Shown in pieces: positions 5,325-18,738 of a DNA stretch of 52,695 bases (within the stretch, counting starts at the first letter, position 1; the number at the start of each line of letters is the position of its first letter). Where the stretch lies: contig CAINYB010000025.1 of NCBI GenBank assembly GCA_903855135.1, positions 1 through 52,695 on the forward strand, read 5' to 3'. The position numbers and the translations under genes were made by a program. A model generated the notes under the pieces. The model saw nothing but the letters and a program-made list of their open reading frames with translations. It ran no database searches and had not been told where the DNA came from. Source of the DNA: an uncultured bacterium. Its GTDB lineage: Bacteria > Patescibacteriota > Patescibacteriia > UBA1558 > GWA2-36-10.

Positions 5325-6368
5325 ATGGATATAAAATTATTTGATTATCACTTACCAAAAAATTTGATCGCCCAGAGCCAAGTAAAGCCTCGCGATCACT
5401 CTAAGCTTTTGGTGCTAGATAAAACTACTGGTGAAATACAAGATAGTTATTTTTATAATATTTTAAATTTTTTGAGTAATAATGACGTTTTGGTTTTAAA
5501 TGAAACCAAAGTATTCCCTTGCCGTTTGCAGGGGCAGAAAAAAACGGGCGCTAAAGTAGAAGTTTTTTTAACTAAAAAAGTAGAGCCTAATATTTGGGAG
5601 TGTTTAGTCAAAGGACATGGTTTAAAAATAGGGGATAAAATTTATTTCGAGAAAAAATTAGTCGGCGAAATAATGAGCGATGGAGCTAAGCTAAAAAAAG
5701 TAAAGTTTAATTTAGCAGGACTTGATTTTTTAAAGATAGTAGAAAAAATAGGTCACACACCATTGCCACCATATATTAAAACAGCAGATAGCCCTTCGAC
5801 TGCGCTCAGGGTTAAAAAAGATTATCAAACAGTTTTTGCCAAAACTAGTGGTTCAGTAGCTGCGCCGACAGCTGGTTTACACTTTACGCCAGCGCTATTA
5901 AAAAAAATTGAGGCTAAAGGCATTAAAATTTTGCGAGTCACCCTACATGTCGGACTTGGTACTTTTGCACCAGTAGAAGTAGAGGACATAACTCAACATC
6001 AGATACATAGTGAGTGGGCGAGTATAGATAAAACAACTGCTGAAAAATTAAATCAAGCTAAAAAATCAGGTAAAAAAATATTAGCAGTTGGTACGACTGC
6101 CGCCAGAACCCTAGAAGCCTTTAGTGATCAAAAAGGCATTTTGCAGTCAGGTGAAAAATGGGTAAATATTTATATTTATCCGGGGATAAAATTTAAATTT
6201 GTTGATAGCTTGATCACTAATTTTCATTTGCCAAAAAGCTCACTACTATTTATGGTGTCAGCTTTAGCTGGTAGGGAGCAAATCATGAATGCTTATCAGC
6301 ACGCTGTGCAAAATAATTATCGCTTCTTCTCTTTCGGTGACGCGATGCTGATAAAAGATTTTAAATAA
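5325..6368 (+). CDS. queA: tRNA preQ1(34) S-adenosylmethionine ribosyltransferase-isomerase
   Basis: FDYHLPKNLIAQSQVKPRDHSKLLVLD, NDVLVLNETKVFPCRL, HTPLPPYIK, GSVAAPTAGLHFTPALL, THVGLGTF-like and NFHLPKSSLLFMVSAL. Confidence 0.95.
   Translation: MDIKLFDYHLPKNLIAQSQVKPRDHSKLLVLDKTTGEIQDSYFYNILNFLSNNDVLVLNETKVFPCRLQGQKKTGAKVEVFLTKKVEPNIWECLVKGHGLKIGDKIYFEKKLVGEIMSDGAKLKKVKFNLAGLDFLKIVEKIGHTPLPPYIKTADSPSTALRVKKDYQTVFAKTSGSVAAPTAGLHFTPALLKKIEAKGIKILRVTLHVGLGTFAPVEVEDITQHQIHSEWASIDKTTAEKLNQAKKSGKKILAVGTTAARTLEAFSDQKGILQSGEKWVNIYIYPGIKFKFVDSLITNFHLPKSSLLFMVSALAGREQIMNAYQHAVQNNYRFFSFGDAMLIKDFK
5792..5811. repeat. palindromic element CCCTTCGACTGCGCTCAGGG inside queA
   Basis: Near-identical to the element in glyA (16281-16300); translated in frame as (D)SPSTALR(V). 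Confidence 0.8.
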
Positions 6369-6393
6369 CCCAGCATTCGCCGGGCGCAACACT

Positions 6394-6430
6394 AAACTCC
6401 ACCCAAAAGCCCTTCTGGATGGAGTTTTTA
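6394..6430 (+). terminator. intrinsic terminator downstream of queA
   Basis: AAACTCCA...TGGAGTTTTTA stem-loop. Confidence 0.6.
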
Positions 6431-6609
6431 TAATACTTCCATGTTCTTGATATTCAATTGTAATTTGTTTCTTTTCTTTTTAATCGCCAAATATTTATTT
6501 TATAATTTCTTTACTATTTTAAAAATAGTATTTTTATTTGTGCTAACTAAAAAATTAAGAAATACTAGAAAGAACTATTTGGTATTTTTAGTATAGCATT
6601 TTTTAGCAG

Positions 6610-6645
6610 ATAAAAAAAGAAGCCCAGCGCATTTCTACGCTGGGC
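6610..6645 (-). terminator. intrinsic terminator of the NYN-domain gene
   Basis: GCCCAGCG-catttcta-CGCTGGGC followed on the minus strand by a TTCTTTTTTT tract. Confidence 0.75.
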
Positions 6646-6652
6646 CAGCCAT

Positions 6653-7399
6653 TCATCGAATAGTGTTGAGTTTGATTCTGGGGATTGGTCGTAGTTCGTG
6701 ATCAATCTCTCTGCTAATGACGAATATTTGTTGTCTCAACAAAGTGCGTATAGTGGTTTCTATTTGCACCGTTGACTCAGGTCGTCTTTCTTGTGCATAT
6801 TTCATCAAAGAAGAAAAAGTAAACCATCGGTCAGGTAGCTGAGATTTTGTTTTATCAACCGTTTTGATCAGAAACTCATTCAAAGTGCACTGACTAGGGT
6901 CATCGTAAAGACAGTCAAGGAGATGAGTATGGTCACTCACTACTATTAATTCAGAATTTAAACAATTGCGTAAGGCATAGACACTGATTGTGTAATCAAA
7001 CCTATCTTTAATGCCATTTAAGGTAGCAGCAAAGTCACCGTCGCCACTTATTAGTACCAAGTGATTTATTTTACCCTGACCATCAATAGCGGTTTCCCAC
7101 AAAGAGTTAATGATCATGATGTCACTTAGCTGTTTTCCATATTGATTTTCTGGAACAGACTTGATGATTACGCCACGATTGCGTAAAAAGTTTTCCAAAG
7201 AAGAAGAAACAACATAGCGCGTTTGAGAGTGAAATTTAGCAAAAGCGATAATGACGTTTGCTTGACCTGGAATTTGTACAAAATCCAAAAGCCTTTGCCA
7301 ATCAAGTGGATAGTGATAAGTGTTCACAAAGCCGTAGCCGACATTTTCAATGTCGATAAAAACTACAGCGCGATCAGACGGACGGGAAGAAGTAGTCAT
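6653..7399 (-). CDS. NYN (PIN-like, LabA-type) domain protein, putative ribonuclease
   Basis: VVFIDIENVGYG, KQLSDIMIINSLWE, LVLISGDGDFAATLNGIKD match NYN acidic motifs; SD GGGAG before ATG. Confidence 0.85.
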   Translation of the reverse strand: MTTSSRPSDRAVVFIDIENVGYGFVNTYHYPLDWQRLLDFVQIPGQANVIIAFAKFHSQTRYVVSSSLENFLRNRGVIIKSVPENQYGKQLSDIMIINSLWETAIDGQGKINHLVLISGDGDFAATLNGIKDRFDYTISVYALRNCLNSELIVVSDHTHLLDCLYDDPSQCTLNEFLIKTVDKTKSQLPDRWFTFSSLMKYAQERRPESTVQIETTIRTLLRQQIFVISREIDHELRPIPRIKLNTIR

Positions 7400-7482
7400 G
7401 ATTTACTCCCTTGAGTTTTTTGTTGATAAAATTTGTTTTAATGAACCAATAGTCGATGAATTGAATCGAACGAATCAAAAAT

Positions 7483-7511
7483 AGACTAACATAATTAGTT
7501 TATTTAGTCAA
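7483..7511 (-). promoter_or_regulatory. sigma70-like promoter of the NYN gene
   Basis: Minus strand: TTGACT - 17 nt - TAGTCT, about 85 nt upstream of the ATG. Confidence 0.55.
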
Positions 7512-7526
7512 TAAAAAGGAGCATTA

Positions 7527-7556
7527 AAAAACTTCCTTGCTTTGCGAGGAAGTTTT
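7527..7556 (-). terminator. intrinsic terminator of ychF
   Basis: AAAACTTCCTtGC-ttt-GCgAGGAAGTTTT just downstream of the ychF stop. Confidence 0.75.
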
Positions 7557-7579
7557 GGGGTAGTAGAGAGTTAAATTTT

Positions 7580-8641
7580 TTAGTTAAAGTAAAAGTGTAC
7601 CGTATCACCATCTTGCATAGTATATTCTTTACCTTCCATGCGCATTAAACCAAGCTCTTTGGCTTTAGTCCAAGAGCCAGCCTTTAATAAATCATGACAA
7701 TTAATTACTTCAGCGCGAATAAAGCCTTTTTCAAAATCAGTATGAATCACGCCGGCGGCTTGAGGAGCTTTAGTGCCTTGCGTTATGGTCCAAGCTTTAG
7801 TTTCTTCTGGACCAGTGGTGATAAAAGTAATTAAATTTAATAAGCCATAGCTTGTTTGAATTAAATTTGTTAAACCACTATTTTTAATACCTAATTCTTG
7901 TAAATAGTTTTGTGCTTCACTTGCATCTAGTTCAGCTAATTCAGCTTCGAGCTTAGCACAGATACTCAAAGAGTTAATGGGCAGATTTAAATCTTTACCT
8001 AAATCATTTTCAGCAATATTATAAAGATAAATAATAGGCTTAAGGCTTAATAAATTTAATTGTTTTAAAATTTTAAATTCTTCTTCTGTCCAAGCAACTT
8101 GCGATAATAATTTTTCTTGTTCTAAAATATCTTTAGCTTTGCTAATGACAATTTTTTCTTGATCTAATTCTTTTTCATAAGCACCTTTCATTTTACTTAT
8201 CACTTTACTCAAGTGTTTGGTGACAGTTTCTAGATCAGCCAAAATTAATTCTAAATTAATGATTTTTTTGTCATCTTCGGGATCGATTTTCCCGCCAACA
8301 TGGATAACATTTGAGTCAGAAAAATGTCTGACCACTTGCACGATGGCATCTACTTCGCGGATGTGAGCTAAAAATTTATTACCCAAGCCTTCGCCAGTTG
8401 AGGCGCCTTTGACAAGGCCAGCGATATCGACAAACTCAATCGTGGTTGGCACGATTTTGGCAGATGCTGACATCACGCTTAATTGATTTAAGCGTTCATC
8501 AGGCACAGCGACTACACCGACATTTGGATCGATAGTACAAAAGGGATAATTAGCCGCATCGACTTTGTTTTTAGTTAAGGCTTGAAAAAGTGTTGATTTA
8601 CCGACATTTGGTAAACCAACAATACCTAAAGAAAATGACAT
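7580..8641 (-). CDS. ychF: redox-regulated ATPase / Obg-like GTPase YchF
   Basis: [91 protein letters not shown]. Confidence 0.96.
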
Positions 8642-8724
8642 AGTTTAATTTATCTTGATTAACGTGTTTTATTTAAACACAAAAAAAGGCTTTCTGTCAA
8701 TTAGCCAAGCTGAACTTTTTAGGC

Positions 8725-8730
8725 TATAAT
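8725..8730 (+). promoter_or_regulatory. -10 element TATAAT 6 nt before the pcrA-like ATG (leaderless architecture)
   Basis: TATAAT-attttc-ATG. Confidence 0.65.
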
Positions 8731-8736
8731 ATTTTC

Positions 8737-10785
8737 ATGTCAAAAATTGATTTCGCTAAAGTTTTAAACGAGGAACAATATCAAGCTGTCACGGTCAAAT
8801 CTGGACCGTGTTTGGTTTTAGCAGGCGCGGGCTCAGGTAAGACTAGAGTCTTAGTACATAAAGTTGCCTGGCTGATCGAGCAAGGTGTCAAACCAGAAAA
8901 AATATTATTGCTCACTTTTACTAATAAAGCAGCCAATGAAATGATGTCACGCACCAAAGTTTTGTTAGGTTTAAAAGATGTAGACAGATTAGCTTTGTGG
9001 GGTGGTACTTTTCATAGTGTAGCCAATAGACTTTTGAGAGTTTATGGTCGCTACTTAGATATTCCAAATAATTTTATTATTTTGGATAGCGATGATAGTA
9101 AAAGTTTGCTTAAAAAAATTTCTAAAGAAGTTTTGCATCATTTAAATCAAAAAAATTTACCCAGCCCAAGTTTGATTCAAGAGGTGATTAGCTTTGCTAC
9201 TAACTCGGACATTAGTTTAAACGAAAGTTTACAAATAAAATTTCCTGAATGGTTACAAATCGCCGAGCAGATTGTCAAAATAGCAGAAATGTATAAACAG
9301 CAAAAACAAAAATCTGGTACTTTAGATTTTGACGATTTACTACAAGCTTGGAAAAAATTAACTACTACCATGCCAACGGATAAAATTTTTGCTAATTTAT
9401 GGGAATATATTTTAGTCGATGAGTATCAGGATACTAATACTATCCAAGCGGAAATTATTTATAATTTAGCCAAAACACATCAAAATATTTTAGTGGTTGG
9501 TGATGATGCGCAAAGCATTTATTCTTTCCGCGCTGCCAATATCCAAAATATTTTAGATTTCCCTACAGTTTTTCCTAAATGTAAGATTATTAAACTAGAA
9601 AAAAATTATCGTTCTAGCCCCGAGATAGTTTCTCTTGCTAACGCTGTTATCGCTGATAATGCCAATCAATTTGCTAAAAATTTAGAGTCAGTTTTAAATC
9701 CGGGAGTTAAGCCAGAGCTAGTCGCAGAAAATAATAATTTTAGTGAAGCTAAATTTTTAGCTGATAAAATAGAATATTTATTGACCTTGGGTATAATTCC
9801 ACAAGAAATAGCCGTCTTATTTAGAGCTTCTCATCATTCACAAAATTTGGAAATAGAGCTGAATAAACGGGGGATTAATTATGAAATGCGTGGTGGCTTA
9901 AAGTTTTTTGAGCGAGCCCATATCAAAGATGTTTTAGCTCATCTTAAAGTTTTGTTTAATTTTAAAGACCAAAGTTCTTGGTCAAGAATATTACCTTTAT
10001 ATGATGGCATCGGTGAAGTCACTGAACAAAAAATTTATTCAAGCTTAAGCCAATTAGATAGTTTAAGTGAGCTTAACGATTTAAATATTAGCTTATCAGC
10101 CAAAGCAGATATTAGCTGGTCGCAGATCAGAGAAAATTTTAATAAGTTATTAAATATTAGTCAGGAAAATCTGAGTGAGCTAATTCGTTTAGTGATGGCG
10201 CAGTATAATGATTACCTAATGTCTCAATATACTGACTATCGTCAGCGTCAAGATGATTTGGAGCAACTAGCCATTTTTGCTTCAGCGCATAGTAATTTAG
10301 CAGAATTTTTAAGTGAGGTAAGTTTGCAAGAAAAATTTAGTGTCAATGATGATAAAAATAAAGCTGGTATTATTTTAAGCACTATTCATCAGGCCAAAGG
10401 TCTAGAGTGGCAGGCAGTTTTTCTTTTGAACTTAACTAGTCGCTCTTTACCTCATCCTTTGTGTCAAAGTGAAACTGAAATAGAAGAAGAGCGTCGATTA
10501 TTTTATGTAGCGGTTACTCGAGCTAAAAGATATTTGTATCTATCTTATCCTTTATCAGAATTTCGTTATGATGGCTACAAAAATTTACAGCCCAGTATTT
10601 TTTTAAGTAATTTAGATAGCAATTTATTAAACTATAATCATCTAGCTCGTTCCAGTGTTTATGCTCAAAGTGATGGCGTTGAGTATGTGCCAGAGCAAGA
10701 CAATGATTTTTATGATGAGGACAAACCACAGCCCAGACATAAAACAAAACCCGGATTTTTTTTGCCAGAAATAGATGAATGGTAG
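8737..10785 (+). CDS. pcrA: UvrD/PcrA-family ATP-dependent DNA helicase
   Basis: LNEEQYQAVTVKSGPCLVLAGAGSGKTRVLVHKVAWLI, LTFTNKAANEM, ILVDEYQDTNTIQ, VVGDDAQSIYSFRAANIQNI, LEKNYRSS, STIHQAKGLEWQAVFL, EERRLFYVAVTRAK. Confidence 0.94.
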   Translation: MSKIDFAKVLNEEQYQAVTVKSGPCLVLAGAGSGKTRVLVHKVAWLIEQGVKPEKILLLTFTNKAANEMMSRTKVLLGLKDVDRLALWGGTFHSVANRLLRVYGRYLDIPNNFIILDSDDSKSLLKKISKEVLHHLNQKNLPSPSLIQEVISFATNSDISLNESLQIKFPEWLQIAEQIVKIAEMYKQQKQKSGTLDFDDLLQAWKKLTTTMPTDKIFANLWEYILVDEYQDTNTIQAEIIYNLAKTHQNILVVGDDAQSIYSFRAANIQNILDFPTVFPKCKIIKLEKNYRSSPEIVSLANAVIADNANQFAKNLESVLNPGVKPELVAENNNFSEAKFLADKIEYLLTLGIIPQEIAVLFRASHHSQNLEIELNKRGINYEMRGGLKFFERAHIKDVLAHLKVLFNFKDQSSWSRILPLYDGIGEVTEQKIYSSLSQLDSLSELNDLNISLSAKADISWSQIRENFNKLLNISQENLSELIRLVMAQYNDYLMSQYTDYRQRQDDLEQLAIFASAHSNLAEFLSEVSLQEKFSVNDDKNKAGIILSTIHQAKGLEWQAVFLLNLTSRSLPHPLCQSETEIEEERRLFYVAVTRAKRYLYLSYPLSEFRYDGYKNLQPSIFLSNLDSNLLNYNHLARSSVYAQSDGVEYVPEQDNDFYDEDKPQPRHKTKPGFFLPEIDEW

Positions 10786-10803
10786 CTTTTTAAATATTTA
10801 GCT

Positions 10804-10827
10804 AAAACCCCACTTTAGTGGGGTTTT
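10804..10827 (+). terminator. intrinsic terminator downstream of pcrA
   Basis: AAAACCCCACTttAGTGGGGTTTT. Confidence 0.75.
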
Positions 10828-10908
10828 GATGAACTCAAAAATATAAGAAAACTCCGCTGACGCGGGGTTTCATGAAATGTTTGAAAATGTTATAATAAGC
10901 TTAAAGAA

Positions 10909-13900
10909 ATGAAGCAATATTATTTAATTAAGGGTAGTTTTAAAAGTAGAATGATAGTTAGTTTTTTGGCTATCAGTGTTTTGTCTATTTTTAATATTTT
11001 TATTTTTTTTGATAAAAATAATCCCCAAGCCACCCATAAAAGTTTAGCTGATGAATACCAATGGCAACAAGATTATACAGTCTGCCCCTTGTATAGTGGT
11101 ACTAATTGTTCCAATTTTCAGCACATTAAAGTTTTTGGTTTGCTTTATGGTGGTCGTTTAGGCAGTTCTTATAACCAATATCAAACTGACACTCTTACAT
11201 CTCTTGATCCGTCACACATATATGAGAATTTACATGATTGGTTTGCGCATCATTATGATCTGACATCTTCTGATACTGAGTGGGGCGGTGTGAGTAAAAA
11301 TATTATTACAGCTTATAATCCAAATATTTCTTCTTGGCAATACATGATCTTAGGTGGCTTGGGTTACATGGTAGATTTAGCGGTTGGTGGTATCAATAGT
11401 ATTTCGCAAAAATATTTGAATGCTGAAAGTTATGCTAGCTTGCATGGTGATAATTTTGAAAATTATTTTATCCATCATGATCAAGATAAGTTGATCCTAG
11501 ACTGTAGTTTTTATAGTTCTTGTGGGTCAGCTTATGAGGGGGTTTTTGAAAACGTGATTTATTATAATGGCTCTAGTTACAGTGATTGGACATATCAAGC
11601 CTTTGGCTATAGTTGGTCTGATTCTGGCATCAGGAAAGATTATACTTTAAGTTTTGGGCAAACAAATTCTATTTTATATTTTGGTAATTTAGAAAAATTT
11701 GATAGTTTATATATTAATTTAAGCCAAAACGCTTCTACTGATTGGCAGGGTGCTTGGGAATATTGGAATGGTTCCAGTTGGACAAATTTAGCTTTATTAC
11801 AAGACACTACAAATGAATTAACACAATCAGGTTTGATTAAGTTTTTTCCACCAACTGATTGGGCAGAGACTTTATTGGCTGATGGTAATCCCTATGCTTT
11901 GAATAGTTTAGCCTATATTCGTTTACGTACTTTAAATCAAGGCACCACTCAACCTATTGCCCATACTTATCAATTAGCTTCCGGCGGAGCTTTACAAAAT
12001 GTACCAGATATTGGTAACGAAGATCCAGGTGTTTCCGCTTTTCACACAGAATTATATTTACCAAGAACATATCAAGATTGGGATTTTAATCCTGATGACG
12101 AATCTCGTGATAGGGGTGTGGAAATAAATTTCTCTTCCGTTACTTTTCCTGGTTGGGATGATAGAAATGATGTGAGCGGTGATGGCTATGTAGATGATGA
12201 TGAGTATGCTAGTTTGGTAAATACTCAAGCTACTGCTCGTTTCAAGCATCAGTCTCGCATTTCATCTTTTTTCTATCAGTATATGTCACATGGGGGTAAT
12301 TATGGAAATAATAATTATCGTAATTTTATCGTAAATAATATAGCCAATAATGCTTATGATCCGATAAATTTTTCTGGTATTATGTTTGACAGTTTAAGCA
12401 CGAGAGTGTCTACTAGATATTGGTATAGCGATATTTCTTTTTTGGAATACACATCAGCAACCTCTACTCAGTTTGTAGATGACGTAAGACAAGTTGTGAT
12501 TGATGTGCAAAATGCTTTACCTGGCGCAATCATAGCCAACAATGATAATTTAAATTTAACTTTTGCTGATATAGTTGACGGTTCAGAAGGTGAAATATTA
12601 TTTCATATTAAAGAAACAAACACTAATAGTAGTGCGGGACAATTACCAACAAATTTAGTCAGTAAATTTAATAAAATTGTTGCTACCTCTAATCAAAATA
12701 AATTATTGACTTTAATGAGTGTTGCTACTGGCGATGATAATATTAATACAGACAGAGAAAAAATATTTGGTTTAGCTGCTTATTATTTACTAGATGATGA
12801 CTCAACTTATTTTTGGTATCAAAATCCATATAAATATAGTGAGCCTTGGAATTATTGGTTTGACGCTATTACTTATGACATTGGCGTGGCTAACAGTGAT
12901 TTTAATTATCAATGGGCAACAGGCCTAGATACAAATAACAATCAATATTATATTTTTTCTCGCAATAGAGCTAATGGTAATAAAGTTTTAGTTAAATTTA
13001 AACCTAAATCTACTTCACTTATTGATGATAGTACTATTACCACTCATCAATTAGACAAACCATATTATCTCCTGCAAGCAGATGGTACTTTATCTGATAA
13101 TACTGTAACTTCAGTTAGCTTAAGAAATAATGAGGGTGCAATTTTGATTGACCCTGCTACTTTGACAGTGGCTCCAACTTGTTCAGACAACATCCAGAAT
13201 GGCAATGAAACAGGCATAGACTGTGGAGGCTCTTGCCCAGCTTGTCCTTCTAATCCACCACCAGAAACTCCTCCAATAGCATGTGGTAACAATATCCAAG
13301 AACAAGGTGAACAATGTGATGATGGTAATACTAATAATAACGATGGTTGTTCTTATCTATGTCAAATAGAAGAAGTAACTCCTACTTCTACTCCTCATAC
13401 AATCTTAGATATCTCTAAACTTCAAGGCACATTAGTAAAACTAAATAATGACCCTAAAGTCTATTATATTAACACTAATAACCAAAGATACCTTATCCCT
13501 AACCTAAATACCTTTAAATCATGGTTTAAGAACTTTAATAGCCTTACTATTATTACTCCTCAAACTCTAGCTTCTTTTGAATACTTAGGTAGACTGACAG
13601 TTAAACCAGGTAAGCTAGTCCAATTTAAAAACTCTAACAAAGTCTATGCAGTAGAACCAGAAAAAACCTTAAGATGGATAACTACAGGACAAATCTTTAA
13701 AGACTTTGGTTATGACTTTAAAAAAATAATACATCTTCCAGAAGAAGACTTTCAATATTATACTCTAGGCGAAGACTTAAATACTTCAACTACTCACCCT
13801 ACAGGACAGTTATTAAAACATGGTAACTTTGCTCCCATCTTCTATATTAAAGACAATATTGAATACTGGATCAAAGATGAAACTACTTTCTTATCTCTAG

Positions 13901-13992
13901 GCTTTAAATGGCAAGATATTATTACTATCCCTGTAAGGTATTGGTATACTAGAGTATTAGATAACTTTAGCTTTAGATTGATGGATAGGTAA
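10909..13992 (+). CDS. large secreted protein: putative glycoside-hydrolase-like ectodomain, Cys-rich DUF4215-like segment, C-terminal KVY-RWI surface repeats
   Basis: N-terminal hydrophobic signal (MIVSFLAISVLSIFNIFIFF); CSDNIQNGNETGIDCGGSCPACP and CGNNIQEQGEQCDDGNTNNNDGCSYLCQ; then three repeats such as NKVYAVEPEKTLRWITTGQIFKDFGYDFKKII. The GH assignment is tentative. Confidence 0.75.
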   Translation: MKQYYLIKGSFKSRMIVSFLAISVLSIFNIFIFFDKNNPQATHKSLADEYQWQQDYTVCPLYSGTNCSNFQHIKVFGLLYGGRLGSSYNQYQTDTLTSLDPSHIYENLHDWFAHHYDLTSSDTEWGGVSKNIITAYNPNISSWQYMILGGLGYMVDLAVGGINSISQKYLNAESYASLHGDNFENYFIHHDQDKLILDCSFYSSCGSAYEGVFENVIYYNGSSYSDWTYQAFGYSWSDSGIRKDYTLSFGQTNSILYFGNLEKFDSLYINLSQNASTDWQGAWEYWNGSSWTNLALLQDTTNELTQSGLIKFFPPTDWAETLLADGNPYALNSLAYIRLRTLNQGTTQPIAHTYQLASGGALQNVPDIGNEDPGVSAFHTELYLPRTYQDWDFNPDDESRDRGVEINFSSVTFPGWDDRNDVSGDGYVDDDEYASLVNTQATARFKHQSRISSFFYQYMSHGGNYGNNNYRNFIVNNIANNAYDPINFSGIMFDSLSTRVSTRYWYSDISFLEYTSATSTQFVDDVRQVVIDVQNALPGAIIANNDNLNLTFADIVDGSEGEILFHIKETNTNSSAGQLPTNLVSKFNKIVATSNQNKLLTLMSVATGDDNINTDREKIFGLAAYYLLDDDSTYFWYQNPYKYSEPWNYWFDAITYDIGVANSDFNYQWATGLDTNNNQYYIFSRNRANGNKVLVKFKPKSTSLIDDSTITTHQLDKPYYLLQADGTLSDNTVTSVSLRNNEGAILIDPATLTVAPTCSDNIQNGNETGIDCGGSCPACPSNPPPETPPIACGNNIQEQGEQCDDGNTNNNDGCSYLCQIEEVTPTSTPHTILDISKLQGTLVKLNNDPKVYYINTNNQRYLIPNLNTFKSWFKNFNSLTIITPQTLASFEYLGRLTVKPGKLVQFKNSNKVYAVEPEKTLRWITTGQIFKDFGYDFKKIIHLPEEDFQYYTLGEDLNTSTTHPTGQLLKHGNFAPIFYIKDNIEYWIKDETTFLSLGFKWQDIITIPVRYWYTRVLDNFSFRLMDR

Positions 13993-14013
13993 AAATCTGT
14001 TAAAATACTTGGC

Positions 14014-14802
14014 ATGAAAGATATAATTGTTTTAGATTTAGAGACGCAAAAAACCTTTGATGAAGTGGGTGGCTTCCAGAGTAATCATCATTTATTAGGT
14101 GTATCAGTGGTGGGTGTGTATTCATATAATTTAGATAAATATCGTGGTTTTAAGGAAGAAGAATTTTCAGAATTATTAGAGCTTTTTAAAAACACCGAAT
14201 TAGTCATTGGTTTTAATAGTAAGGCTTTTGATTTTCCGGTTTTACAACCTTATTACAAAGATTTTGATTTATCTACTATTCCACATTTAGATATTTTAGA
14301 AGAAGTGGTGCATGCTTTGGGTCATCGTTTAAAACTTGAGTCTGTTGCCCAAAGCACGCTCGGCTATGGTAAGTCTGGTTCCGGGCTAGATGCTATCATG
14401 TATTATCGAAATAATGATTGGGACAAACTAATCAAGTATTGCTTAGATGACGTCAAAGTTACTAAAGAAGTTTATGATTATGGTTTAAAACATGGTAATA
14501 TCTGGTATCATAATTCAGGACAAAAAGAACCAATAGTTGCGCGTTGGTTTGATAAAAGCAATCAAACACCTATCAAAGCCATGGTGGAAAAGGCTTTAGC
14601 TGACGGCCAGCAATTGGAAATTGATTATATGGATGAAAGTGGTCAAGTGACTAAACGTAAGATTGATATCCAAGCGATCAAAGGAAATAAAATAAAAGCT
14701 TTTTGCCATATGCGTGACGCTTTAAGAGTATTTGATATAGACAGAATTAAAGATGCAAAATTAGTTGGCAAAATGCAAAGTTTTCAAAGTAGTTTATTAT
14801 AA
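14014..14802 (+). CDS. DEDD-type 3'-5' exonuclease-like (RNase H fold) domain fused to a C-terminal WYL-like domain
   Basis: IIVLDLETQKTF, LVIGFNSKAFDFPVL, LDILEEV, YCLDDVKVTKEVYDYG (DEDD motifs); C-terminal ALADGQQLEIDYMDESGQVTKRKIDIQAI...AFCHMRDALRVFDIDRIKDAKLV resembles WYL. Confidence 0.8.
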   Translation: MKDIIVLDLETQKTFDEVGGFQSNHHLLGVSVVGVYSYNLDKYRGFKEEEFSELLELFKNTELVIGFNSKAFDFPVLQPYYKDFDLSTIPHLDILEEVVHALGHRLKLESVAQSTLGYGKSGSGLDAIMYYRNNDWDKLIKYCLDDVKVTKEVYDYGLKHGNIWYHNSGQKEPIVARWFDKSNQTPIKAMVEKALADGQQLEIDYMDESGQVTKRKIDIQAIKGNKIKAFCHMRDALRVFDIDRIKDAKLVGKMQSFQSSLL

Positions 14803-14814
14803 ATATAGCAATTA

Positions 14815-14840
14815 AAAAATCGCACTAAGTGCGATTTTTT
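14815..14840. terminator. bidirectional intrinsic terminator
   Basis: AAAAAATCGCACTaAGTGCGATTTTTT between convergent genes. Confidence 0.8.
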
Positions 14841-15661
14841 TTATAAAGTTGTAAAGTATTATATAAAAGCATTGCCACTGTCATGGGTCCGACACCACCA
14901 GGTACTGGTGTTATATGAGAAGCTTTAGCAAAGACACTGCTATAATCTACGTCACCGACAGTGTAGTCTTTTACTTTATTGGTACCGACATCAATCACGA
15001 TAGCTTTTTCTTTGATCATGTCAGCGGTGATAAAAAAAGCGATGCCCGCAGCCGAGATCAAAATATCGGCTGCTTTAGTAATTTTTTTTATATCTTTATT
15101 TTTTGGATCAACAATTTCGGTGGCAACTTTTAGATCATTTAATAATTTTTTTAAAGGTCGATAAAAAATTTCACTTTTAGCGACAATAACCGCTTTTTTT
15201 TCAGCTAAATTTTCGCCTGTGCTTTCTAAAAGTCTGATAATACCTAAAGGCAAGCCAGGTATAAAATCTGCAGAGTTATTTAATAATTTTTTAATGTTTT
15301 TTGGATGAAAACCATCTACATCTTTTGTAGGATCAATGCTTTGGATGATAGTGTCAGCGTCTAGCTGTGTTGGTAATGGCAATTGGACTAAAATAGCATC
15401 CACATCTTCATCTTTATTTAAAAAATTTATAGCTTCTAAAACTTGGTCTTGTGAAATATTAGCTGGCATCAAATATTCACTAAATTCAATGCCAACTTTT
15501 TTAGCGGCTTGTTTTTTTAAAGCTACATAAAGTTTAGAAGCTTCATCTGAGCCTATTAAAATAACCGCTAAATTTGGGTGATAGAAATTTTGAAATATTT
15601 CTCCCGCAATTTCAGCTTTTATACTTTCGGCTATTTTTTTGCCATCAATTATTTGTGCCAT
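14825..15661 (-). CDS. folD: bifunctional methylenetetrahydrofolate dehydrogenase/cyclohydrolase FolD (diverged nucleotide-binding motif)
   Basis: SKLYVALKKQAAKKVGIEF, ILVQLPLPTQLD, DPTKDVDGFHPKN, ITPVPGGVGPMTVAMLLYNT. Confidence 0.93.
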   Translation of the reverse strand: MAQIIDGKKIAESIKAEIAGEIFQNFYHPNLAVILIGSDEASKLYVALKKQAAKKVGIEFSEYLMPANISQDQVLEAINFLNKDEDVDAILVQLPLPTQLDADTIIQSIDPTKDVDGFHPKNIKKLLNNSADFIPGLPLGIIRLLESTGENLAEKKAVIVAKSEIFYRPLKKLLNDLKVATEIVDPKNKDIKKITKAADILISAAGIAFFITADMIKEKAIVIDVGTNKVKDYTVGDVDYSSVFAKASHITPVPGGVGPMTVAMLLYNTLQLYKKNRT

Positions 15662-15667
15662 TTTTTG

Positions 15668-15735
15668 TCATGCTGAATTTATTTCAGCATCTATTAAGTA
15701 TAATATTTTAGCCCCTGAAACAAGTTCAGGGTGAC
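15668..15735. repeat. two tandem palindromic elements between folD and glyA
   Basis: gtcATGCTGAA-tttat-TTCAGCATc and gcCCCTGAA-acaag-TTCAGGGtgac; same architecture, and the second ends in the reverse complement of the starting GTCA motif. Confidence 0.8.
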
Positions 15736-15744
15736 TATCTAAAT

Positions 15745-17046
15745 TTACAATTCTGGATAAAGCGGAAAGTTTTGCATTAAGGCTAAAACTTTTTCTTTAT
15801 TTTCTGCTTTAGCTTTTTTATCTCGAGCCTGTCGAGAGATTAAAGTATCAATAATCACCTCAGCAATTATTTCCATCTCCGCTTCTTTTAAGCCACGGGT
15901 AGTCAAAGCGGCCGTGCCAAGTCTGATGCCAGACGGATCCATTGGTTTACGAGTATCATAAGGGATCATGTTTTTGTTAGTAAAAATCGCTACTTGGTCA
16001 AGCAGTGTTTCTGCTTCTTGACCACCTAAACCTAAAAGACTGACGTCCAATAATAACAAATGATTATCGGTACCACCAGAGACTAATCTGATACCAGCGG
16101 CTTTGAATTTGTTTTCCAAAACTTTTGCATTAGTTAAAATTTGTTTTTGATAAGCTTTGAATTCTGGGCTTAAAGCTTCTTGGAAGGCGACAGCTTTAGC
16201 AGCGATCACATGCTCTAATGGTCCGCCTTGAAGCCCGGGAAAAATAGCAGAGTCAATTTTTTGAGCTAAGTTTTTTCTTGCCCTGAGCTCAGTCGAAGGG
16301 TTACCACCTTTATCCAATCTATCTTCTATTTTAGATAAAATAAAACCACTACGTGGTCCGCGCAAAGTTTTGTGTGTAGTTGAAGTGACGATGTCGGCTA
16401 CTGGCACTGGATCAGGATGCAGACCGGTGGCTACAAGACCTGCGATATGTGCCATGTCTACCATCAAATAAGCGCCTACCTGATCCGCAATGTCTTTAAA
16501 TTTTTGAAAATCAATTTGTCTTGGGTATGCTGAAGCACCAGCTAAGATAATTTTTGGCTTATGAAGTTTGGCTTGTTTTTCTACTTCATCAAAATCAATC
16601 ATTTCTGTATCTTTATTTACACCGTAACTGACGAAGTTATAACTTTTTCCAGAAAAATTTACTGGATGTCCATGAGTCAAATGTCCGCCGTGAGCTAAAG
16701 AAAAACCTAAGATAGTATCATGTAATTCACAGACCGCAAAGTAAGCGGCGGCATTAGCTTGTGAGCCAGCGTGCGCTTGGACATTAGCATGTTCCGCTTT
16801 AAATAATTTTTTGACACGTTCAATCGCCAAAGTTTCTATCTGATCAATAAATTCATTACCGCCATAGTATCTTTTATTTGGGTAGCCTTCAGCATATTTG
16901 TTTGTCAAAATAGAACCAGTGGCTTCTAAAATTGAAGTAGAGACAAAGTTTTCGGATGCGATCATTTCGGCACCAGTTCTTTGTCTATTTAATTCTTTTT
17001 GAATTAATTCCGCTATCTGCGGATCATTGGTTTGTAAATTTTTCAT
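15745..17046 (-). CDS. glyA: serine hydroxymethyltransferase
   Basis: [109 protein letters not shown]. Confidence 0.97.
15821..15837. repeat. small palindrome TCTCGAgcctgTCGAGA near the glyA 3' end
   Basis: 6-bp inverted repeat with 5-nt loop, encoded as ISRQAR in GlyA. Confidence 0.5.
16281..16300. repeat. palindromic element CCCTGAGCTCAGTCGAAGGG inside glyA
   Basis: Reverse complement CCCTTCGACTGAGCTCAGGG differs from the queA copy at one base; encodes (N)PSTELR(A) on the glyA strand. Confidence 0.85.
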
Positions 17047-17061: not shown

Positions 17062-18738
17062 CTATTTTAAATTTTTAGTCACATAAGTACCCTCTAGCTC
17101 ATAGCCAAGTTTACGATAATAATTTCTGACACCGATGCCAGAAATGACAGCAACTTTATATAGACCTTGTTCTAAAGTAATACGCTCAGCTTCGGCCATC
17201 AATCTTTTACCTAAACCTAAATGTTGGGTATTGGAAATTGCACCATCCTGAGCCTCTGGCGAAGGATCTTCGTCATCAACATTGAGAGCCGGGATCATTT
17301 TGCCATAGACATGAAGCTCACGTACTAGGGAAGCATTTTTTAATTCTGCTAAAATATTTTCTTGTGGTTTATCATTGATACGCAAACGTAAGAAAGCATA
17401 AACTTTAGTATGGTCATGATTTTCAAAACTCAAAAACCATTCGCGGCCTTGAGAGGCGCGATATTTGCGCGTGACTAATTCTACACTTTTGATATCAAAT
17501 AATTCACCCTTGACTTCACGACAACGTAAACACTGACAAGCTTTGCCTTGTTTTTTTAATTCTGCCTGTAAGTATTGTCTTAAGTTGGTGATACGGTTAC
17601 CAGCAATAATGCTTTCTTCGGGGATATCACGGATCAAGCGATTAATACGCATGTATGGTGGTACTAATTTTTTTACTTCTAACAATAAATCTAACAATTC
17701 TTTTTCACTAAAAGGTTTATATTTTCCCTCTTGAAACCATTTGTTTAATTCAGCAAATTCATTGACTACACAAGGGTAAATTTTTAGTTGGTCTGGTTGT
17801 AAATCTTCACTTTCAAAAACATATTTAAACATCGCTAAATCTTTGGCTGGACTTGAGCCTGGTAAGTCTGGCATGTAGTGATGATCGACTTTAAAACCAG
17901 CGTCTTTCAAGAGGTGAGTGGCCAAAATAGATTGCTCGACACTATGTCCGCGTTGGATCAAATCCAAAATTTTATTGTCTGTATGTTGGACGCCGAGTTG
18001 GACACGAGTACAACCTAAAATTCTTAGTTTTTTTATTTCTGTTTCATGGATAAAGTCAGGACGGGTCTCTAAAGTTAAACCAATGATTTTATAACGAGCA
18101 GTTTCATTAATAGTCTGCTCTTCACTTAAAGATAATTTTTCGCGTTTTATTATCTTCTCATTGCCATTCCTCGCCGTAGGCGAGGAATTATTAATCATTG
18201 TATTAGCTGCATAAAAACAATCACGAATAAAATCATGCTGATATTGATCAGGATAAACTGACCAAGTACCACCCAAAACTAAAATTTCTATTTTATCTAC
18301 CAAGTGGCCATTGTTTTCTAGGGCTTGGATACGCATAGTTACTTGACGCTCAGCATCAAACAAATTCATCTTGGCGCGCATGGCAGCGGGCTCGTTAGAT
18401 AGATAGCTTTTGGGCATATCTGACTCAGTTGGACAGTAGATACATTTTCCCGGACAAACAAAAGGTTTGGTCAAAACTGTGATGACTGATACACCAGATA
18501 AAGTACGAACGGCGCGTTTAGTAAACAGCTCGGCTATTCTTTCGTCATTTTTTAAACGGCCAGATTTGACTAATTGACGATAAACTAAAATTAGGTTAGC
18601 TTTAGTAGTAGGAGCTAGATGCTCAGTAGAAAAGACTTGTCTTAATTTTTTGACAAAGTCTAAATCTGAGGCATATTTGGTGTTTGCCAGCTCAATTACA
18701 ATATTTTCTAAAATTTTTTCGTCTATAAAATCTGCCAT
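17062..18738 (-). CDS. elp3: Elp3-family radical SAM / GNAT tRNA uridine(34) carboxymethyl-type transferase
   Basis: KPFVCPGKCIYCPTESDMPKSYLSNEPAAMRA, IIGLTLETRPDFI, RVQLGVQHTDN, DHHYMPDLPGSSPAKD, REWFLSFEN; GNAT tail ELHVYGKMIPAL...QHLGLGKRLMAEAERI...GIGVRNYYRKLGYELEG. Confidence 0.93.
   Translation of the reverse strand: MADFIDEKILENIVIELANTKYASDLDFVKKLRQVFSTEHLAPTTKANLILVYRQLVKSGRLKNDERIAELFTKRAVRTLSGVSVITVLTKPFVCPGKCIYCPTESDMPKSYLSNEPAAMRAKMNLFDAERQVTMRIQALENNGHLVDKIEILVLGGTWSVYPDQYQHDFIRDCFYAANTMINNSSPTARNGNEKIIKREKLSLSEEQTINETARYKIIGLTLETRPDFIHETEIKKLRILGCTRVQLGVQHTDNKILDLIQRGHSVEQSILATHLLKDAGFKVDHHYMPDLPGSSPAKDLAMFKYVFESEDLQPDQLKIYPCVVNEFAELNKWFQEGKYKPFSEKELLDLLLEVKKLVPPYMRINRLIRDIPEESIIAGNRITNLRQYLQAELKKQGKACQCLRCREVKGELFDIKSVELVTRKYRASQGREWFLSFENHDHTKVYAFLRLRINDKPQENILAELKNASLVRELHVYGKMIPALNVDDEDPSPEAQDGAISNTQHLGLGKRLMAEAERITLEQGLYKVAVISGIGVRNYYRKLGYELEGTYVTKNLK
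18166..18188. repeat. perfect palindrome inside elp3
   Basis: ATTCCTCGCC-gta-GGCGAGGAAT (10-bp perfect stem, 3-nt loop), encoded in frame as NSSPTARN on the minus strand. Confidence 0.85.

Follow-up and report, generated by a model that had tools for sequence, protein, structure and literature searches.

The window analysed here, a 52,695-nucleotide stretch of bacterial DNA, carries two 20-mers, one within queA and one within glyA (Table 1), which very probably arose when a single short mobile repeat, a REP-like hairpin consisting of 20 bp and a 4-nt tag, was recently inserted at each site separately. The occurrence of the same element inside these two genes, proposed in a preliminary description of this DNA, is borne out: both 20-mers are in place, the two ORFs are confirmed by Pfam profiles, and the chance expectation of the 20-mers in shuffled sequence is 0. 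Besides these two, no copy with up to 3 mismatches is found in the window. The tag is TTAA in the queA copy and CTTG in the glyA copy. QueA has several solved homologues (1yy3, 1vky, 1wdi).

Table 1. The two element copies, their host genes and the oligonucleotide form of the element (positions in the window)
Feature	Position	Strand	Reading or basis
queA, S-adenosylmethionine:tRNA ribosyltransferase-isomerase, host of copy 1	5325..6368	+	ORF; PF02547, E 5.6e-130
Copy 1, 20-mer CCCTTCGACTGCGCTCAGGG	5792..5811	+	QueA codons 157-162, PSTALR
Possible full 24-bp unit in queA (20-mer + TTAA)	5792..5815	+	Boundary by analogy with glyA
glyA, serine hydroxymethyltransferase (SHMT), host of copy 2	15745..17046	-	ORF; PF00464, E 1.7e-167
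Copy 2, 20-mer CCCTTCGACTGAGCTCAGGG	16281..16300	-	GlyA residues 250-255, PSTELR
24-bp inserted unit in glyA, CCCTTCGACTGAGCTCAGGGCAAG (20-mer + CAAG), adjoining an A-run	16277..16300	-	Comparison with G009
Hairpin oligonucleotide form of the element, CCTGAGCGNAGTCGAAGG			

Genomic copies and empty sites in relatives

The genome that contains the window (810 kb in 28 contigs), which by its size and gene content is probably a member of the Patescibacteria, harbors 18-20 copies of the element at up to 3 mismatches. The control pattern, read in reverse, has 0, so that the 20-mer is commoner than expected by chance. Four copies are clearly genic: those in queA and glyA, which were identified by Pfam profile, and those in the N-terminal half of a transketolase and in an NAD(P)/FAD oxidoreductase-like gene, both named by eye from the sequence. 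The remaining copies are intergenic or lie within doubtful short ORFs. Several non-genic copies cap terminator-like stems with matching outer arms, for example, CCCCCGC-CCATTCGACTACGCTCAGGG-GCGGGGGTTTT, a stem at which an automatic terminator scan restricted to loops of 3-8 made no call. Rfam gives no match at the element, only two tRNAs nearby. At locus L004, a copy (1501-1520) is located a short distance upstream of the tRNA gene at 1560-1631 and is embedded in a longer compound palindrome, CCGCCTTCG-element-CTTCGGTGG.

Alignment of QueA and GlyA with close relatives, the check proposed in the preliminary description, shows that the element is absent from the corresponding sites. In queA, PSTALR is present in 0 of the 25 aligned relatives: where this genome reads D-S-PSTALR-V-K-K, G009, a member of the same genus with an 85% identical queA, has D-S-AD-I-K-K, and G004 has D-S-RL-I-K-K. 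The net gain over these two genomes is only 12 bp, so approximately 12 bp were also lost or replaced at this site. Judged by alignment, the glyA event is a clean 24-bp insertion relative to the congener G009: removal of CCCTTCGACTGAGCTCAGGGCAAG leaves GGTAAAAAAAAC, and G009 has GACAAAAAAAAC, which differs at two bases; the site is empty in G004 and other relatives as well. The oxidoreductase-like gene is exactly 24 bp longer than its counterpart in G009 (the 20-mer plus CAGG), and the transketolase gene shows a net gain of 15 bp. The queA and transketolase gains (12 and 15 bp) are not clean 24-bp insertions and count as evidence against the reading proposed here. The reverse case is found in an Elp3-like gene, where the linker of the G004 protein contains PSTSLR and this genome has a different sequence.

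In the window, the same linker of the Elp3-like gene (17062-18738) encloses a different, perfect hairpin, ATTCCTCGCC-GTA-GGCGAGGAAT (18166-18188), with a 10-bp stem and a GTA triloop, which may represent another type of palindrome inside genes. A relative of this hairpin, CCCCGCCTACGGCGGGG, is found at 745-761, just upstream of an ORF that starts at 780.

The history of the glyA insertion might be more complex than a single recent event. In the more distant G015 (L314; contig C6: 6855-6874), the exact glyA site, which is empty in relatives closer than G015, is occupied by a decayed copy of the same length, CCCTTCGGCTTCGCTCATGACTAG. Its presence implies common ancestry followed by losses, exchange between lineages, or repeated use of the target, and the glyA insertion may itself be older with losses, exchanged, or repeated. 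The search for target-site duplications, also suggested previously, yielded no clear case, and at glyA the insertion lies at an A-run in which a duplication could not be told apart. Outside genes, G009 carries a terminator-like copy beside a helicase gene (L485 8164-8183; contig C6: 19163-19182), between blocks that align to window positions 7580-10794 and 14014-17046; the window has no copy there.

A covariation-supported hairpin and its distribution

The description of the element as a palindrome holds only in part: the arms CCCT/AGGG and two inner pairs are Watson-Crick complementary, but the core TTCGACTNCGCTCA does not pair with itself by the usual rules. A plain palindrome was rejected: the 20-mer alone folds no better than shuffled sequences (ViennaRNA, in which tandem G.A is not credited). 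Among 92 distinct variants collected from genomes of this bacterium's family, the covarying columns 4-17, 2-19, 7-14, 9-13, 1-20 and 3-18 occupy ranks 1-5 and 7 of the 171 column pairs ranked, and double changes are complementary in 34 of 35 cases; columns 5, 6, 15 and 16 are near-invariant, and column 8 is free to vary. The outer pairs recur in an independent set that represents other families and phyla, in which the inner pairs hardly vary; support for the inner pairs comes mainly from one family. The covariation supports a predicted hairpin on the strand opposite the 20-mer, 5'-CCCTGAGCGNAGTCGAAGGG-3', that would consist of the outer CCCT/AGGG stem, a tandem G.A with geometry predicted from the sequence, a G-C pair, a bulged T, a C-G pair and a GNA triloop, the N of which is the sole free position of the core. 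GNA loops closed by G-C pairs are extraordinarily stable DNA mini-hairpins (PMC4686876). In the glyA copy, the GNA loop has been lost through one substitution (GCGNAG to GCTCAG).

Among the matches listed, exact copies are found in many phyla, including Bacteroidota, Chloroflexota, Cyanobacteria, Acidobacteriota, Spirochaetota and Proteobacteria, and viral contigs contain exact copies in 114 stretches. An exact copy of the core is present in 61 of the 287 Patescibacteria genomes, compared with 0 of 287 for the reversed control core. Copy number ranges from 0 to 30 within a single family, the copy-rich members of which (G018, G019 and G011) have 17-30 copies each. The flanks of the Patescibacteria copies differ between genomic contexts: a YGTC-type tag accompanies 33 of 120 intergenic but 6 of 71 genic copies (3 and 1, respectively, at the mirror position, which served as a control), whereas CAG or CAA follows the core in 23 of 71 genic and 9 of 120 intergenic copies. 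A replication-strand preference was considered and rejected, given that none is evident from the local GC skew at 189 Patescibacteria copies; where a strand bias is apparent, in G153, the copies form clustered arrays. Within dense clusters on contig C1 of that genome, copies at 108194-108483 and 775339-775460 are arrayed in tandem and regularly spaced, at 68 and 52 bp.

Possible routes of spread and the fate of genic copies

Under the insertion scenario, the unit length of 24 bp, divisible by three, and the absence of stops from five of the six core frames would allow a copy that enters a flexible loop to be translated and to survive as a short, probably neutral peptide, and gene-breaking copies would be lost. 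Genomes of this type are mostly coding; that ORFs contain only 69 of 189 copies is what is expected if most genic insertions are purged. The element would spread via a single-stranded hairpin intermediate, which would be copied or pasted in the course of host replication and repair or, alternatively, by an enzyme that acts in trans and whose gene does not adjoin the element.

The identity of the mover is the weak step of this scenario because the transposase domain Y1_Tnp (PF01797), despite its phylum-wide association with the element, is missing from the copy-richest genomes of the family, and Y1 genes elsewhere are not flanked by copies. In this genome, Y1_Tnp has no match even at E 10, and a RAYT or IS200 enzyme of its own was accordingly rejected as the mobiliser. 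The domain is likewise missing from G018, G019 and G011 and from G153, which has 20 exact copies. These absences are consistent with the possible, if tentative, route in which the hairpin spreads without any transposase, through template switching during replication or repair combined with local conversion between hairpins. Such a process would also fit the terminator-like stems tipped by element copies, with their matching outer arms, and the replacement of sequence, in addition to its gain, in two of the four genic events. It agrees less well with the two clean 24-bp insertions and the constant unit size, which have the look of a defined element, and it would have to be supplemented by transfer to account for near-identical cores in distant phyla.

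Mobilization by a Y1 HUH transposase of the RAYT or IS200/IS605 type, acting in trans or in the past, as thought for REPs and REPINs, appears distinctly unlikely. Among the 287 Patescibacteria genomes, Y1_Tnp is found in 42 of the 61 that carry the element vs 97 of the other 226 (odds ratio 2.9, relatedness ignored), and the element, as a structured single strand that bears a 5' tag of 4 nt, recalls the anatomy of REPs. Against this stand the Y1-free genomes listed above, the lack of a replication-strand bias in local GC skew, and the neighborhoods of the Y1 genes themselves, with an element copy within ~300 bp in only one of 20 regions. The probability that remains beyond these two routes is left to other trans-acting enzymes. 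More generally, the 24-bp single-stranded hairpin, with its core of tandem G.A and GNA-type triloop almost letter-identical across phyla and viral contigs, could be a mini-element that propagates itself, does without a dedicated transposase and repeatedly adds new loops to proteins; we consider this generalization speculative and rather doubtful.

The element is present in terminator-like stems and in genes alike, as are the uptake sequences of Neisseria and Pasteurellaceae. Nevertheless, it is very improbable that it is a DNA-uptake sequence maintained for transformation: copies average roughly one in 40 kb, far short of the known densities of uptake sequences, and the range within one family extends from 0 to 30 copies.

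The identical reading of the two window copies as PST[A/E]LR, which had been highlighted in the preliminary description, is confirmed at the level of the peptides (PSTALR and PSTELR) but carries no special sign. Of the 189 Patescibacteria copies, 69 are located within ORFs of 130 aa or more, some of the shorter of which might be spurious, and these are read as FDxAQG (19), PSTxLR (18), PERSRR (14), LSxVEG (11) and LRLRSG (7); the sixth frame holds a stop and is by construction uncountable. Two random genic copies thus agree in frame with a probability of ~0.22. All five open frames are also seen outside Patescibacteria, in loci of other phyla and of viral contigs, and frames other than PSTxLR occur in relatives from the same family as well. 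The four clear genic copies of this genome all read PST[A/E/T/S]LR, for which the probability, calculated after the fact, is ~0.01-0.02. The frame shared by the queA and glyA copies is chance, not signal. Selection for a PSTxLR peptide, with the shared DNA following protein function, would suit the uniform reading in this genome but is contradicted by the frame counts, in which other frames dominate elsewhere, and by the non-coding location of most copies, the unrelated host enzymes and the orthologues that do without the motif, and is hardly credible.

GlyA had been noticed to be longer than other SHMTs at this site, and solved SHMT structures indeed have 18 residues fewer there; however, ~10 of the ~18 extra residues (DRLxPxDKK) belong to an older extension common to relatives without the element, so only ~8 are accounted for by the insertion. 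The suggestion that the inserts form surface loops fares better for GlyA than for QueA: in the AlphaFold models, the GlyA insert (residues 249-256) falls within or next to a coil (239-253; block pLDDT ~70), whereas the QueA insert (157-162) has a pLDDT of ~60, at which its placement is unreliable. The simplest reading is neutral tolerance, within a loop, of an inserted peptide that probably has no function of its own.

Relationship to known repeats

No description of the element motif or its peptides was found in the main text of the open literature searched. Among known repeats, the GTAG REPs, REPINs and RAYTs share with the element the combination of a hairpin with a 4-nt 5' tag and a non-autonomous, dispersed mode of existence. 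By tag counts at the outer pair, the element lacks the GTAG tag; furthermore, no RAYT-type gene is present in this genome, and Y1 genes elsewhere in the Patescibacteria have no flanking copies.

Elements of the RPE-1 type, the Rickettsia palindromic elements compared here by description, are longer. They are referred to as longer palindromic insertions in the survey of CGTC-tagged REPs (PMC3733652). The resemblance to Rickettsia palindromic elements pointed out in the preliminary description otherwise stands: the element is a genome-wide repeat that inserts in frame into variable loops of unrelated, otherwise conserved genes, is tolerated as an extra peptide, and faces empty sites in close relatives.

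The CGTC-tagged REPs, the nearest superfamily described, which include RPE-4 and RPE-6 of Rickettsia and dRS3 of Neisseria, have some units inside genes and lack a transposase of their own (Di Nocera et al., 2013, PMC3733652). They are defined by a stem of 8-9 bp starting with two A-T pairs, a loop of 4-5 nt and an unpaired CGTC (or TGTC/CCTC) tag at one end, and REPs with bulges may, by the authors' own account, have escaped the search (PMC3733652). Like these repeats, the element is a short dispersed hairpin in the range of 20-30 bp, mostly intergenic and in some cases in-frame genic, that is found in several phyla without association with transposase genes, and some copies in other genomes carry a YGTC tag and an A-T pair beside the core. 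In contrast, the window copies are tagged TTAA and CTTG, and their stems start with C-G, C-G and lack the terminal A-T pairs; the element's covariation-supported stem comprises four pairs, the tandem G.A and two pairs with a bulge, and its loop has 3 nt. Given these differences in tag and stem, the window copies are not classified as members of the CGTC-tagged REPs. With the present findings, the conversion of repeat hairpins into protein loops, known from Rickettsia and Proteobacteria, extends to Patescibacteria, where close relatives show the sites empty, and the covariation-supported core suggests a concrete structure. As the motif recurs in many phyla and in viral contigs, the question posed by Di Nocera et al. 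(PMC3733652) of what moves CGTC-type REPs that lack a dedicated transposase can now be addressed in a very small genome that offers few candidate enzymes.
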